From assembly GCF_014842995.1 (NCBI RefSeq), contig NZ_JACYXL010000001.1, positions 435,183-499,182 on the forward strand: a stretch of 64,000 nucleotides of DNA, given 5' to 3'. The translations under genes and the position numbers were made by a program. Shown in pieces: positions 14,102 to 60,227 of this stretch (its first letter is position 1; each line of letters starts with the position of its first letter). This DNA comes from Rhodanobacter sp. 7MK24 (lineage in GTDB: Bacteria > Pseudomonadota > Gammaproteobacteria > Xanthomonadales > Rhodanobacteraceae). The notes under the pieces were generated by a model. It was given only the letters and a program-made list of their open reading frames with translations. It searched no databases and had not been told where the DNA came from.

Positions 14102-14162
14102 TTTTTGCGATCATCCCTGATCGCGAAGATCACACGGGCGGCTATCCATGGCCGCACTTTTC
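14102..14162 (+). repeat. Family A dispersed repeat, copy 1
   Basis: This copy reads TTTTTGCGATCATCCCTGAT, then CGCGAAGATCACACGGGC, then GGCTATCCATGGCCGCACTT ending TTCA. It contains a GATC-rich dyad and a second GCGGCCAT/ATGGCCGC-type dyad followed by a T-run. The same layout recurs nine more times in the window. It starts directly at the hydroxylase stop codon and may act as its terminator. Confidence 0.85.
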
Positions 14163-14210
14163 AGAGAAGCGCGCCTTGTAGGCGCAACCTGTGCGCTCTA
14201 CAGGTGGTTC

Positions 14211-15680: not shown

Positions 15681-15942
15681 AGAGTGCGGCCATGGATGGC
15701 CGCTGGTGGCGTCAGGGAAGGGCGATGGGCTTGAGGCTCGCTGCTACCTGCCACGCTGCGGCGATTCCGGACGAATCGCACTGATACTCAAAGTGCGGCC
15801 ACGGATGGCCGCCCGTTTGATCTTCACGATCAGGGACGATCGCAAAACTCTGGATGGCCGTTGGTGGCGCAAGAGCAGGGCGAGAGCTTGAAACTTGCAG
15901 CTACCTGCCACGCCATGGCGATTCCGGACGAATCGCACTGGT
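15681..15942. repeat. Repeat cluster: two family B units flanking one inverted family A copy
   Basis: Two family B units (15681-15781 and about 15849-15942) each run from a GCGGCCATGGATGGCCGC-like dyad, through GCTACCTGCCACGC, to GCGATTCCGGACGAATCGCA. Between them an inverted family A copy occupies 15790-15848. The cluster fills the whole gap between the cyclophilin and ppx. Apparent open frames here (minus strand, beginning MRFVRNR) are repeat translations and not genes. Confidence 0.85.
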
Positions 15943-21918: not shown

Positions 21919-22065
21919 GTCATCCCGGCGCAGGCCGGGATCCAGTAGCAATATCGCTTGCTCAAGCCGCACAGTCACTGGATGACTCGCTGCGCTCGCC
22001 CCTCCGGGGCTGCCCTGCGGGCGTTCTGCGCGCTTCGCGCTTGTCCGGCCTTCGCCGGAATGACG
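21919..22065. repeat. Family C miniature inverted-repeat element (intact copy) between phoB and phoR
   Basis: The left end reads GTCATCCCGGCGCAGGCCGG. The right end, read in reverse complement, is GTCATTCCGGCGAAGGCCGG. Total length is about 147 bases. The centre contains ACTCGCTGCGCTCGCCCCTC and GCGCGCTTCGCGCTTGTCCG. A second copy of nearly the same length lies at 43498-43645. There is no coding capacity, so it is a non-autonomous element. Confidence 0.85.
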
Positions 22066-24488: not shown

Positions 24489-24519
24489 GAGGGCGGGTAT
24501 CTGCGGATAATGTGAAGGG

Positions 24520-24641
24520 TTGCGACCAAGCATGATCGCGGAGAGCAAACGCGCAGCCAGCCGTGGCCGTACTTCTGCTGCTTTTGCGATCATCCATGAT
24601 CGCGGGATCAAGCGGGCCAGCCATCCGCGGCTGCACTTTTC
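24520..24641. repeat. Family A dispersed repeats, copies 3 and 4 in tandem
   Basis: Two plus-oriented units lie at 24520-24571 (GCGACCAAGCATGATCGCGG onward) and 24582-24641 (TTTTGCGATCATCCATGATC onward, ending CGCGGCTGCACTTTTCAA). They are more diverged than copy 1 but keep both dyads. They occupy the divergent gap between bepA and grxC, where both promoters must also lie. Confidence 0.75.
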
Positions 24642-24725
24642 AACCATTCAGTTGACCGCTCATGTGGAAGCTTGTTCCAAGGGTTTTTTACCCCCACATT
24701 GTGCGCAGGCAACCGGAGTTACGTG

Positions 24726-32422: not shown

Positions 32423-33208
32423 CTAGTGCGCCAGTACGCGCAAGGGCGCGCTGCCGGGTTGGTAGCCTTGCGCCAGCGCGCGTTGCACATAGGCCACTGC
32501 GCGGCGCACGGCGCTGCGTGGCGATTGCCCCTTCGCCAGCTCGGCGGCCACCGCCGAGGCCAGCGTGCAGCCTGTGCCGTGGGCCTCCAGCTTCAGTCGC
32601 AGGTGACGCAGTTCCATCACGCCGCGCGCGTCGAAGTAGCGGTCCACCACGTCGCGGCCGCTGCCGTGGCCGCCCTTGAGCAGCACGCTCTTGGCGCCCA
32701 GTTCGCGCAACTCGTTGCCGGCACGCGTGCAGTCCTTCGCGCTGCGGATCGGATAGCCGAGCAGCGCCTCGGCCTCGGGCAGGTTGGGCGTCAGCACGTC
32801 GGCCAGCGGGATCAGCTTGTTCACCAGCACCGCGATGGCGCCTTCATCGAGCAGGCGCGCGCCGCTGGTGGCGATCATTACCGGATCGACCACCAGCCAC
32901 GCCGGCTTGCGCAACGCCATCTCGCGCGCCACCAGCCGCACGATGGCCGCGCTGCCCAGCATGCCGGTCTTCACGGCGCCGATGGGGAAGTCGTCGAATA
33001 CCGCGGCGATCTGGCTGCGGATGTGCGCCAGCGGTACCGGATGCACGGCGGCCACCCCGCGCGTGTTCTGCGAGGTGATCGCGGCAATGGCCGACAAGCC
33101 GTGCACGCCGCGCGCATGGAAGGTCTTCAGGTCGGCCTGGATACCCGCGCCACCGCCGGAGTCGGAGCCAGCGATGGTGAGGGCGATGGGAGGCATGGCA
33201 TGGGGCAT
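32423..33208 (-). CDS. thiD: Bifunctional hydroxymethylpyrimidine kinase / phosphomethylpyrimidine kinase
   Basis: This 261-residue ribokinase-fold enzyme phosphorylates HMP and HMP-P in thiamine biosynthesis. Characteristic blocks are ALTIAGSDSGGGAGIQADLKTF, VVDPVMIATSG, LTPNLPEAEALLG and the anion-hole segment HGTGCTLASAVAAELAKG. The second ATG at 33196 is equally plausible. No other thi genes lie nearby. The gap to its right holds the repeats that flank the GIY-YIG cassette. Confidence 0.95.
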   Translation of the reverse strand: MPHAMPPIALTIAGSDSGGGAGIQADLKTFHARGVHGLSAIAAITSQNTRGVAAVHPVPLAHIRSQIAAVFDDFPIGAVKTGMLGSAAIVRLVAREMALRKPAWLVVDPVMIATSGARLLDEGAIAVLVNKLIPLADVLTPNLPEAEALLGYPIRSAKDCTRAGNELRELGAKSVLLKGGHGSGRDVVDRYFDARGVMELRHLRLKLEAHGTGCTLASAVAAELAKGQSPRSAVRRAVAYVQRALAQGYQPGSAPLRVLAH

Positions 33209-33264: not shown

Positions 33265-33291
33265 CTGGATTCCGGGCTGCGCCGGAATGAC
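33265..33291. repeat. Isolated family C end sequence
   Basis: CTGGATTCCGGGCTGCGCCG followed by GAATGAC is the reverse-complement form of the family C end. It lies 34 bases left of the cassette at 33326-33686 and faces its left end, so the two form an inverted pair of their own. Confidence 0.75.
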
Positions 33292-33325: not shown

Positions 33326-33686
33326 GTCATTCCGGCGCAGGCCAGAATCCAGTTAGAGCAACGTCGGATAAAGGTCACGCCATCCGGGATTCTCGCCTTC
33401 GATCAGCCTCGACTTCCAGGCGCGCTTCCATTCTTTGAGTTGTTTCTCACGGAGAATGCCGGACTCCATCGTTTCATGTAGCTCATACCAGACCAGATCG
33501 TGGACGTGATGGTGCGATGTGGAGCTCCGGACGGCTTCGTTGCGATGTTGCCAGATGCGGCCGACCAGGTTGCTGGTGACACCGATGTACAAGGTGCCAT
33601 TCCGTCGGCAGGCAAGCATGTACACGCAGGGCTGTCGCCAATCCATGGCGTGGTTTCCACTGGATGCCGGCCTGCGCCGGCATGAC
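33326..33686. mobile_element. 361-bp GIY-YIG nuclease cassette bounded by 27-bp inverted repeats
   Basis: The left end (33326-33352) begins GTCATTCCGGCGCAGGCC. The right end (33660-33686), read in reverse complement, begins GTCATGCCGGCGCAGGCC. Over 27 bases they agree at 24 positions. A single nuclease gene fills the interior: its stop codon directly abuts the left repeat and its ATG lies 14 bases from the right repeat. The same end sequence bounds the non-coding family C elements at 21919-22065 and 43498-43645. The layout is that of a minimal mobile cassette. No target-site duplication is evident. Confidence 0.65.
33353..33646 (-). CDS. Small GIY-YIG nuclease
   Basis: The 97-residue single-domain protein has the GIY-YIG core: VYMLACRRNGTLYIGVTSNLVGRIWQH with the two motif strands, the catalytic arginine and a following histidine. 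The conserved glutamate lies in SGILREKQLKEWKRAWK. All catalytic positions seem intact. Related stand-alone proteins (UPF0213/YhbQ-like) are nucleases of uncertain role. Here the gene is tightly enclosed by inverted repeats, which suggests that it moves with, or acts on, those repeats. No ribosome site is evident, and only 14 bases separate the ATG from the repeat. Confidence 0.9.
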   Translation of the reverse strand: MDWRQPCVYMLACRRNGTLYIGVTSNLVGRIWQHRNEAVRSSTSHHHVHDLVWYELHETMESGILREKQLKEWKRAWKSRLIEGENPGWRDLYPTLL

Positions 33687-33697
33687 GATCAAGAGCT

Positions 33698-35077
33698 CTA
33701 CAACGCCTCCGAAGCGAAATCCGCCAGCCGCGAGCGTTCGCCGCGCCGCAGGGTGACGTGCGCCGAATGCTCCCACTGCTTGAAGCGGTCCACCGCGTAG
33801 GTGAGGCCGGAGGTGGTTTCCGTGAGGTAGGGCGTGTCGATCTGCTCCACATTGCCCAGGCACACGATCTTGGTGCCGGGGCCGGCGCGGGTGATCAGGG
33901 TCTTCATCTGTTTGGGCGTGAGGTTCTGCGCCTCGTCGATGATCAGGTAGCGCGACAGGAAGGTGCGTCCGCGCATGAAGTTGAGCGAGCGGATCTTGAT
34001 GCGCGAGGCGAGCAGGTCGTTAGTGGCCTGGCGGCCCCAGCTGCCGCCTTCCTCGGGGTTGGCGAGCACCTCGAGGTTGTCGGTGAGCGCACCCATCCAC
34101 GGCGTCATCTTTTCTTCCTCAGTGCCGGGAAGGAAGCCGATGTCCTCGCCCACGCTCACCGTGGCGCGGGTCATGATGATCTCGCGATAGCGCTGCTGGT
34201 CCATCACCTGTGCCAGGCCTGCCGCGAGCGCGAGCAGGGTCTTGCCGGTGCCGGCGGTACCGAGCAGGGTGACGAAATCCACGTCCGGATCCATCAACAC
34301 GTTGAGCGCGAAGTTCTGTTCGCGGTTGCGTGCGGCGATGCCCCAGACATGGTGGTTGGCATGGCTGTGGTCGTCCATCAGCGCGAGCGTGGCTTTGTCT
34401 TCGTCCAGCTTGAGCACGCGCAGCTCCACGCCGCCTTCGCCGGGCAGGTACAGGCACTGGTTGGGATACCAGTCCTCGTCTTCGCGGCGTGAAAGCTTGT
34501 AGTAGGTGCGGCCGCGCTCGTTCCACGACTCCACTTCCGGGTGCGCGTCCCAGAAGTTCTCGGGCAGCGCGGTGGAGCCGGTGTAGAGCAGGGCGAAGTC
34601 GTCCAGCGCGCGGTCGTTCTCGTAGTCCTCCGCGTCGATGCCGTAGATCTTCGCCTTGATGCGGAGGTTGATGTCCTTGCTGACCAGGATCACCGAGCGC
34701 TCGGGGTTCTGGTCGCGCAACTCGATCACCGCGGCGAGGATCAGGTTGTCCGCCTTGCCGTGGTTGGCGGTGGTGCGCTGCTGGAAATACAACCGGCCCA
34801 CCGCGGCACCGCGCTTGAGATTGACGCCCTGCGGATTGGCCAGCTCCAGCCCGTTGCTGATGCCGTGGCCGTTGCCACGCACGATCAGTTCGTTGAGGAA
34901 GCGGCTGACCTGGCGGCCGTTGCGCGAAACTTCCGAGCCGCCTTTCTTCTTCTCGTCCAGCTCCTCCAGCACCGTCATCGGGATGAACACGTCGTGTTCC
35001 TCGAAGCGGAACAACGAGGTGGGATCGTGCAGCAGCACGTTGGTGTCCAGAACGTAGATGCGCTTGCTTGCGGTCAT
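33698..35077 (-). CDS. PIN-PhoH fusion ATPase (PhoH2 type)
   Basis: The 459-residue protein has an N-terminal PIN ribonuclease domain (RIYVLDTNVLLHDP, with D11; then E38/E39 and SKDINLRIKAKIYGI) and a C-terminal PhoH ATPase domain. In the latter, Walker A is LGTAGTGKTLLALAAG (around residue 270) and Walker B is RYLIIDEAQNLTPKQM. PhoH2 proteins are RNA helicase-RNases, in some bacteria part of toxin-antitoxin pairs. No small antitoxin gene is visible upstream. Only 11 bases separate its stop from the family C cassette. Confidence 0.92.
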   Translation of the reverse strand: MTASKRIYVLDTNVLLHDPTSLFRFEEHDVFIPMTVLEELDEKKKGGSEVSRNGRQVSRFLNELIVRGNGHGISNGLELANPQGVNLKRGAAVGRLYFQQRTTANHGKADNLILAAVIELRDQNPERSVILVSKDINLRIKAKIYGIDAEDYENDRALDDFALLYTGSTALPENFWDAHPEVESWNERGRTYYKLSRREDEDWYPNQCLYLPGEGGVELRVLKLDEDKATLALMDDHSHANHHVWGIAARNREQNFALNVLMDPDVDFVTLLGTAGTGKTLLALAAGLAQVMDQQRYREIIMTRATVSVGEDIGFLPGTEEEKMTPWMGALTDNLEVLANPEEGGSWGRQATNDLLASRIKIRSLNFMRGRTFLSRYLIIDEAQNLTPKQMKTLITRAGPGTKIVCLGNVEQIDTPYLTETTSGLTYAVDRFKQWEHSAHVTLRRGERSRLADFASEAL

Positions 35078-38236: not shown

Positions 38237-38281
38237 AGTGTGGCTGCCCGTCTGATCTTCGCGATCCTGGATGATCGCAAG
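38237..38281 (-). repeat. Family A dispersed repeat, inverted partial copy
   Basis: On the minus strand this reads TTGCGATCATCCAGGATCGC, then GAAGATCAGACGGGCAGCCAC. The right dyad of the family is truncated. It lies between the shared terminator and the fdxA stop. Confidence 0.8.
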
Positions 38282-43497: not shown

Positions 43498-43645
43498 GTC
43501 ATTCCGGCGCAGGCCGGAATCCAGCGACGGCATGGCTTAAATGATGAGTGCGGGTTGCCGCTGGACGACTCGCTGCGCCCGCCCCTTCAGGGCTGCCGTA
43601 CGGGCGTCCTGTGCGCTTCGCGCTTGTCCGACCTCGCCGGGATGA
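43498..43645. repeat. Family C miniature inverted-repeat element (second intact copy)
   Basis: The left end is GTCATTCCGGCGCAGGCCGG. The right end in reverse complement begins GTCATCCCGGCGAGGTCGG. The centre (ACTCGCTGCGCCCGCCCCTT, then GCGCTTCGCGCTTGTCCG) matches the copy at 21919-22065. It lies between the pan terminator and metQ. Confidence 0.85.
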
Positions 43646-54634: not shown

Positions 54635-54844
54635 ATGTCTGATCGTCAGATCGGTACCGTCAAGTGGTTCAACGACGCCAAGGGCTTCGGCTTCATCGCC
54701 CGTGACAACGGCCCGGACGTGTTCGTGCATTTCCGCGCGATCACCGGCAACGGCTTCAAGAGCCTGCAGGAAGGCCAGAAGGTCAGCTTCAAGGTGGTGC
54801 AGGGCCAGAAGGGCCTGCAGGCCGACGAAGTCAGCGCCGCCTGA
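54635..54844 (+). CDS. Cold-shock domain protein (first copy)
   Basis: The 69-residue single-stranded nucleic-acid-binding protein has RNP1 (KGFGFI) and RNP2 (VFVHF). The ATG at 54635 has GGAG about 8 bases upstream. It is identical to the second copy at 60 of 69 positions. A tetraloop terminator follows at once, so it is a single-gene transcript. It may act as an RNA chaperone, constitutive or cold-induced. Confidence 0.96.
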
Positions 54845-54865
54845 TTGCCTGCAAGCGTCAAACGA

Positions 54866-55186: not shown

Positions 55187-55396
55187 ATGTCGGATCGTGA
55201 AACGGGTACCGTCAAGTGGTTCAACGACGCCAAGGGGTTCGGCTTCATCAGCCGCGAGAATGGCCCTGACGTGTTCGTGCATTTCCGTGCCATCACCGGC
55301 ACGGGCTTCAAGAGCCTGCAGGAAGGCCAGAAGGTGACGTTCAAGGTGGTGCAGGGCCAGAAGGGCCTGCAGGCCGAAGAAGTCGCTCCGGCGTGA
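55187..55396 (+). CDS. Cold-shock domain protein (second copy)
   Basis: This 69-residue protein is a close paralogue of the upstream gene; it differs at nine positions, mostly conservative (for example D/E, S/T, A/S). RNP1 and RNP2 are intact. CGGAG precedes the ATG. The 340-base gap after the first copy holds a TTGACA at 54998-55003 without a clear -10 at the right distance, then the shared leader motif. The pair looks like a local tandem duplication. Confidence 0.96.
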
Positions 55397-55414
55397 TCGC
55401 TGCCTTGCAAGCGG

Positions 55415-55445: not shown

Positions 55446-55448
55446 CTG

Positions 55449-55566
55449 TTGCGACGGTCCTTGATCGCGAAGATCAAACGGGCGGCCGTCCATGGCTGGC
55501 CGTTGCCTTTGCAATCATCCTTGATCGCTAGGATCAAATGGGCGGCCATCCACGGCCGCACTTTTC
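55449..55566 (+). repeat. Family A dispersed repeats, two tandem copies directly before a start codon
   Basis: Copies lie at 55449-55505 (TTGCGACGGTCCTTGATCGC onward) and 55508-55566 (TTTGCAATCATCCTTGATCG onward, ending CGGCCGCACTTTTCA). The second ends one base before the ATG of the hydrolase at 55568. No other sequence is available there for a ribosome site. Confidence 0.85.
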
Positions 55567-55567
55567 A

Positions 55568-60162: not shown

Positions 60163-60227
60163 GTTTTTGCGATTGCCCTCGATCGCTGAGATCAAACGGG
60201 CGACCGTCCCTGGCCGCATCTTTCAGA
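60163..60227 (+). repeat. Family A dispersed repeat
   Basis: The copy runs TTTTTGCGATTGCCCTCGAT, then CGCTGAGATCAAACGGGC, then GACCGTCCCTGGCCGCATCT, ending TTCA. It lies between the Rieske gene and the convergent mipA-like gene, and the mipA-like stop codon falls in its last bases. Confidence 0.85.

Follow-up and report, generated by a model that had tools for sequence, protein, structure and literature searches.

A GIY-YIG nuclease gene framed by CGTC-type REPs in Rhodanobacter as candidate partner of this repeat class

The thiD-phoH cassette and its repeats

The stretch of DNA analysed (the window, 64,000 nucleotides of Rhodanobacter sp. 7MK24) carries, in the spacer between thiD and phoH, a short gene coding a stand-alone protein of the GIY-YIG family that is tightly framed by two repeats. 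The locus is organized as follows.

32423..33208, minus strand: thiD, neighbour on one side (context)
33265..33291, minus strand: third REP copy, outside the cassette, oriented as the one at 33660-33686 and 34 bp beyond the first REP
33326..33352, plus strand: CGTC-type REP on the 3' side of the GIY-YIG gene, abutting its stop codon
33353..33646, minus strand: stand-alone GIY-YIG gene (97 amino acids), all family-invariant residues present
33660..33686, minus strand: inverted CGTC-type REP on the upstream side, 13 bp from the GIY-YIG ATG
33326..33686, minus strand: the whole REP-gene-REP cassette (361 bp) in the thiD/phoH spacer, found with REPs in 4 of 15 genus genomes
33698..35077, minus strand: phoH, neighbour on the other side (context)

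Inverted terminal repeats, a trait of mobile elements, thus bound the gene at 33326-33686. The preliminary description of the window had recognized this arrangement of a 97-codon GIY-YIG gene between inverted 27-bp repeats, and it was right: the stop codon touches one repeat and the two framing REPs are identical at 24 of 27 positions. The inverted copy also lies just upstream of the ATG as it had said, but at 13 bp instead of 14, and to the two framing copies that it had identified must be added the third one (33265-33291, minus strand) that it had missed.

The encoded protein belongs to PF01541 (GIY-YIG; 57.8 bits for a cut-off of 22.6). Its residues Y9, Y20, R30, H34 and E67, invariant in 43 sequences, are taken to be the catalytic ones, as in GIY-YIG enzymes generally. 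Comparison of its AlphaFold model (pLDDT 85.8) to PDB structures yielded no match at E 0.001 or better; the best one is the UPF0213 protein 1zg2 (E 3.6e-3), followed by the GIY-YIG domains of Slx1 and UvrC (E 0.09 or worse). A search of NCBIfam gave no match at E 0.01. An origin of the gene in a defence system or in a phage was rejected because the matches in PADLOC (E 2e-3) and PHROG (E 2e-3), the latter to homing-endonuclease families, are weak.

The window repeat is built as CGTC-ATTCCGGC-GCAG-GCCGGAAT-CCAG (tag, stem, loop, stem and tail) and features the CGTC tag, 8–9 bp stem, loop of 4–5 and CCA tail that define CGTC-type REPs. Di Nocera et al. 2013 (PMC3733652) define this super-family, with dRS3 of Neisseria and RPE-4/RPE-6 of Rickettsia among its members, which they describe as having a stem of 8–9 bp, a short loop and a CCA tail, and as often found in opposite-orientation pairs. 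They record these REPs (dRS3 and relatives) in five phyla and state that they “apparently lack a dedicated transposase”, unlike the GTAG REPs with their RAYT transposases (PMC3733652). The term GIY-YIG has no occurrence in the main text of that article, which reports no gene associated with CGTC REPs.

The 4.15-Mb genome of the strain contains 67 matches to the REP with at most 3 mismatches while the reversed pattern gives 0, and these copies are thus more than chance would provide. Inward pairs of 75–115 bp, six of them 86 bp long, account for 28 of the 67 matches (14 pairs, in a count that excludes more diverged REP partners); multiple copies and frequent opposite pairing are characteristic of CGTC-type REPs. 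RAYT was rejected as partner of the CGTC repeats since the genome has no match to a Y1 transposase (RAYT-type, PF01797). At the 13 Y1-transposase loci of the genus, a GTCATNCC-type REP is found within 400 bp in 0 cases; other hairpins are present at 3 of them.

Another dispersed repeat of ~60 bp (TTTGCGATCATCC..TGATCGCGAAGATCA) is found in the window, with copies in both orientations.

14104-14163, 15790-15850, 24519-24642, 38243-38280, 55448-55567 and 60166-60225: ~60-bp dispersed repeat

For this repeat, too, the genome offers no Y1 transposase match as partner. The window also has a 214-bp direct repeat (54635-54848 and 55187-55400; 87% identical, 552 bp apart).

Repeat framing and pairing across the nuclease family

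A search profile built from ten genus proteins detects the gene in 107 of the 398 phylum genomes, sampled at one genome per species. Loci were defined by HMM-based gene finding: 177 were taken and 4 were dropped for flanks shorter than 100 bases, leaving 173. They comprise genus loci, named loci drawn from the best 80 of 576 profile matches, and so the closest to the profile, and a phylum sample that takes one place from each of 85 of the 107 gene-bearing genomes (the other 22 being 20 without listed coordinates and 2 at contig edges). Framing was defined as a de novo inverted repeat with a score of at least 15 in 150-bp flanks.

Such repeats frame the GIY-YIG gene at 107 of the 173 homologous loci (genus 11/12, named 46/77, phylum sample 50/84), whereas the corresponding counts are 4/284 for neighbouring ORFs and 0/173 for shuffled flanks. 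The repeat-framed cassette is therefore common across the protein family. CGTC hairpins are found on both sides of the gene at 90/173 loci and of 6/284 neighbouring ORFs. A CGTC hairpin on any side occurs at 130/173 loci versus 54/284 neighbouring ORFs, which in this control may share one spacer with the nuclease gene, and 3/173 shuffled cases. The preliminary description had asked if other GIY-YIG copies are repeat-bounded; the second stand-alone gene of the same genome is, by repeats of the same kind. It had also held that GIY-YIG loci devoid of repeats would speak against its reading: repeats are present at each of the 12 strong genus loci, but the wider set of 173 includes 23 that show none by the inverted-repeat and CGTC-hairpin tests. 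No framing REP was found at the plasmid locus of Rhizobium sp. K1/93 (L305), and no REP copy, at up to 6 mismatches, within the 3.2-kb locus of a 611-aa UvrC-like ORF of the Rhodanobacter genome. The 172 distinct loci (L114, which duplicates the own gene of L015, is left out in this count only) fall into 137 genomic contexts, or 113 if those with one shared side are merged, and framing repeats are present in 85 of the 137.

A second subfamily of small GIY-YIG proteins (ILECADGSFYIGHTD; L016-L020 and L254-L283) is framed by inverted repeats at 24 of 35 loci (0/35 when shuffled). The repeats are largely of another class, CCTGAG...TCGAAGG (CCTGAGCTTGTCGAAGG / TCATCCTGAGG...CCTCGAAGGA), and the subfamily is possibly a parallel nuclease-repeat system.

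The correspondence between gene and repeat type was assessed with 61 genes from 21 multi-paralogue genomes hand-picked beforehand, a subset of such genomes and of their copies. Comparing the left repeat of a gene to its own right repeat gives a mean score of 23.8, with 49/61 at 15 or more; when the left and the right repeat are taken from different paralogues of one genome, the mean is 10.9, with 21/138 at 15 or more. The observed pairing sum was reached by 0 of 10,000 within-genome permutations. Paralogues of one genome thus tend to their own repeat type, as illustrated by genome G214, where at least three clearly different types surround the four paralogues examined. The GTC tag and an ATCCA-like tail are kept in many of the repeat types. 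Framing of a gene by a gene-specific type of REP, as in REPtrons, is found statistically and not at every locus. Each nuclease lineage tends to go with a REP of its own, with GTC tag, stem-loop and CCA-like tail, and such paralogue-wise pairing would be expected of a nuclease and its target. One could argue that the repeats serve to terminate transcription or to stabilise the mRNA of the nuclease gene and of adjacent genes, their pairing being unlinked to nuclease activity, considering that one REP of the window abuts the stop codon and that the repeats are palindromic and intergenic at the sites read. Their presence on both sides of the gene, including upstream of the start codon, and their going with the nuclease paralogue make this explanation highly improbable.

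Gene and REPs are also associated at the level of genomes. At least 4 REP hits, counted with a pattern restricted to the ATTCC..GGAAT stem type, are found in 39 of 107 genomes with the gene versus 27 of 291 without it (398 genomes; Fisher p 1.1e-9). Fewer than 4 hits of this pattern occur in 68 of the 107 gene-bearing genomes. Note that 17 of 42 genomes with at least 10 REP hits lack a family member, as do in the genus G008 (49 REP hits) and G009 (21) for the GIY-YIG gene, so that the gene-REP link is not absolute.

Occupied, empty and deleted sites

Orthologous sites are found occupied and empty, as expected of mobile elements. At thiD-phoH, the gene is present together with REPs in 4 of the 15 genus genomes; G003 has a REP remnant and no gene, and the remaining 10 carry neither gene nor repeats (two of them with no thiD found beside phoH). 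At nrdA-nrdB, gene and REPs occur together in 6 of 14 genomes, the gene of one being broken by a stop; G009 has a REP pair only and 7 genomes have neither. In Azospirillum lipoferum 4B the gene lies in the sufB/sufC spacer with one REP pair on either side. This insert is absent from 11 further Azospirillum records, which cover ~81–82% of the query in two pieces (three were aligned), and the simplest reading is hence that it was gained in A. lipoferum. Gene and repeats thus come and go together at thiD-phoH, nrdA-nrdB and sufB-sufC. The preliminary description had regarded repeats without the gene at thiD-phoH as a reason to abandon its view. They exist in one genome, G003, where the remnant looks like the outcome of a repeat-to-repeat deletion.

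Cassette sites of the genus are common to named Dyella, Rhodanobacter and Oleiagrimonas records, which implies that movement is rare. The second cassette of the Rhodanobacter genome (G000:C22:249465-249740, L015) lies in the nrdA/nrdB spacer on the opposite strand; this site is common to five named records of those three genera and occupied in six genus genomes. In G001 a stop interrupts the nrdA-nrdB nuclease gene (L012), and the repeats on its two sides still match.

Because of the divergence of the genus spacers, the cassette borders cannot be positioned exactly there, and closer pairs, chosen by availability, were taken from a plasmid collection. That collection contains chromosome-sized records filed as plasmids (N. 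gonorrhoeae, 2.2 Mb; Sinorhizobium, 3.5–3.7 Mb; L304, L307, L322).

At three sites some gene-less records carry one palindrome composed of the outer halves of the two REPs that flank the gene elsewhere. The first is defined by the palindrome of Sphingobium plasmids TYG64 and TYG74 versus seven occupied records (three aligned); the gene-less TYG72 and TYG65 lack it at this site. The second is gltA-lpxB, gene-less in Sinorhizobium K101 and occupied in S. meliloti Ak57 by two cassettes in tandem, one of them deleted. The third is reciprocal, Ak57 being gene-less at another site where Sinorhizobium C101 is occupied. The hybrid palindromes of TYG74 and of the third site are imperfect. Gene-less sites of Azospirillum, Shinella and Novosphingobium show no hybrid palindrome of the cassette's REP. 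Cassette borders fall inside palindromes at some sites. Double-tag palindromes with the stem type of the window REP are found in 20 of 31 chosen genomes, with eight in the Rhodanobacter genome and 0 in the reversed control; they may be either the entry site of the cassette or the scar of its loss. Target-site duplications were established at none of the sites. The Sphingobium junction has 8 bp common to both REPs, which may be a duplication or deletion homology, and a simple deletion could thus make the hybrid palindrome.

The hybrid palindromes and the alleles of G003 and G009 are the leftovers expected of repeat-to-repeat deletion. This would suit a scheme in which dispersed REPs recombine in the ordinary way and any DNA enclosed by them is moved or deleted, the nuclease gene being a common passenger. 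That view is at odds with the rarity of such framing for neighbouring ORFs (4/284), with the match of paralogues to specific REP types and with the finding of a GTCATNCC-type REP within 400 bp of 0/13 Y1-transposase loci of the genus, and we regard it as improbable.

Two non-coding elements of the window were compared to the cassette.

21919..22065, plus strand: non-coding element, full REP at left (2 mismatches to the consensus), poor copy (21/27) at right
43498..43645, plus strand: second copy of the non-coding element, full REP at left (0 mismatches), right end 16/27

The preliminary description had these ~148-bp elements bounded by the repeat, which is correct for one good end of each but not for the poor far ends. 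Their inner 74 bp are 88% identical. It had further derived them from the nuclease cassette, a descent that is left unsupported as only the ends, and not the interiors, are common with it. Neither the 14 REP pairs nor the two elements have an interior that matches that of the cassette (the best hit is one 9-bp match, E 0.08), and the short elements of the window were rejected as deleted cassettes. An internally deleted copy, as known for mobile elements, was identified once.

L322 1157-1312: deleted, non-coding cassette of S. meliloti Ak57 (157 bp), adjoining an intact cassette

What remains of the cassette in it, at 96–97% identity, is 37 bp from the left end and 113 bp from the right. The notion of non-autonomous derivatives of the nuclease cassette is thereby upheld for this copy, but not for the short elements of the window.

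The nuclease-plus-repeat system and its relatives

These data suggest that the window nuclease is the missing partner enzyme of the widespread CGTC repeat class, for which it is the best candidate. We lean towards the view that nuclease and repeats form one system, of which the 361-bp unit is a copy, and that the framing CGTC REP is the target of the nuclease. The GIY-YIG nuclease would bind and nick its own REP, most likely as a single-stranded hairpin. Local cleavage followed by repair, or by annealing between palindromes, could then lead REP-bounded segments to be copied elsewhere or lost, and such segments would include both the gene cassette and the short REP pairs. The system would work like RAYT/REP with an unrelated enzyme. 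The preliminary description had seen in the cassette a GIY-YIG counterpart of RAYT/REP: framing, pairing, joint gain and loss and one deleted copy sustain this parallel, of which movement is a predicted part.

A more far-reaching proposal, which we put forward tentatively and with more doubt than conviction, is that of an unrecognized class of mobile elements. GIY-YIG nucleases would mobilise CGTC REPs, the small GIY-YIG proteins with CCTGAG...TCGAAGG repeats would form a second branch, and the cassette would enter or leave a palindrome by cleavage within it, so that a lone palindrome would be the empty form of a site and REP-gene-REP its occupied form. Against mobility stand the sites kept for long times, the REP-rich genomes without the gene, the 23/173 loci without repeats and the gene-less alleles that deletion can explain, together with the REP-pair spacers of the Rhodanobacter genome that do not match the cassette interior and the other gene-less records without a hybrid palindrome.

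The role of GIY-YIG proteins at repeats, presented as new in the preliminary description, has probably been published already. A 2025 paper in Nature Communications reportedly describes the Ssn family of GIY-YIG nucleases, which cut ssDNA at repeated target sequences; the family is said to have been found first in Neisseria meningitidis, to have thousands of homologues and to play a role in transformation. The N. gonorrhoeae homologue of the window protein (61% identical), with dRS3 in its flanks, is presumably Ssn, and the window protein is thus related to a Neisseria GIY-YIG nuclease beside dRS3/NTS, the feature reported for that family. The cassette could accordingly hold an Ssn-like chromosomal nuclease without mobility that cuts ssDNA at its REPs (e.g., in incoming DNA during transformation), the framing REPs being autoregulatory or selected and the repeats spreading otherwise. 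The dRS3 repeats that surround the N. gonorrhoeae homologue, the reported ssDNA nuclease activity and transformation role of Ssn and the long conservation of the genus sites argue for it. Taken alone, it fails to explain the at least 113 genomic contexts, most with repeats alongside, the insertion inside the suf and nrd operons and the truncated non-coding cassette, and we hold it to be unlikely. Target recognition by this nuclease family is probably known already. Cassette gain and loss, hybrid palindromes, deleted copies and the link to CGTC REPs as a class are not known to be the theme of the Ssn paper. With caution, what may be new here is the identification with CGTC REPs as a class, the statistics of paralogue pairing, the gain and loss of cassettes, the hybrid palindromes and the deleted copy.

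If GIY-YIG genes are the partner of CGTC REPs, one can test how these repeats arose. Natural pairs of nuclease and target would then be available in several genomes for swapping and measuring their specificity, and REP systems would have arisen at least twice, with unrelated nucleases. No published link between GIY-YIG and CGTC REPs was found in the open literature, partly judged by title and abstract start; two passages of PMC6006769, both in its reference list, do not mention GIY.

The window protein resembles several known systems. It is homologous to the dRS3-surrounded protein of Neisseria, like Ssn. It shares the GIY-YIG domain with UPF0213-like stand-alone proteins, 1zg2 being its best solved match, and with phage homing endonucleases. 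Unlike the latter, it is associated with no intron, intein or invaded conserved target gene: the window site is intergenic and REP-bounded, and both thiD-phoH and nrdA-nrdB are intergenic. The window repeat fits the CGTC REPs of PMC3733652 in tag, stem, loop, CCA tail and opposite-orientation pairing, with the difference that a GIY-YIG gene is associated here. As in REPtrons, whose RAYT (TnpA-REP) is of Y1/HuH type (see also PMC3733652), one nuclease gene is framed by REPs, REP types are gene-specific and short REP pairs are scattered in the genome. The two differ in fold (GIY-YIG versus HuH), in tag (CGTC versus GTAG) and in the enzyme available, the Rhodanobacter genome having no PF01797 match to a Y1/HuH transposase and carrying a GIY-YIG protein in the place that the RAYT takes in REPtrons.
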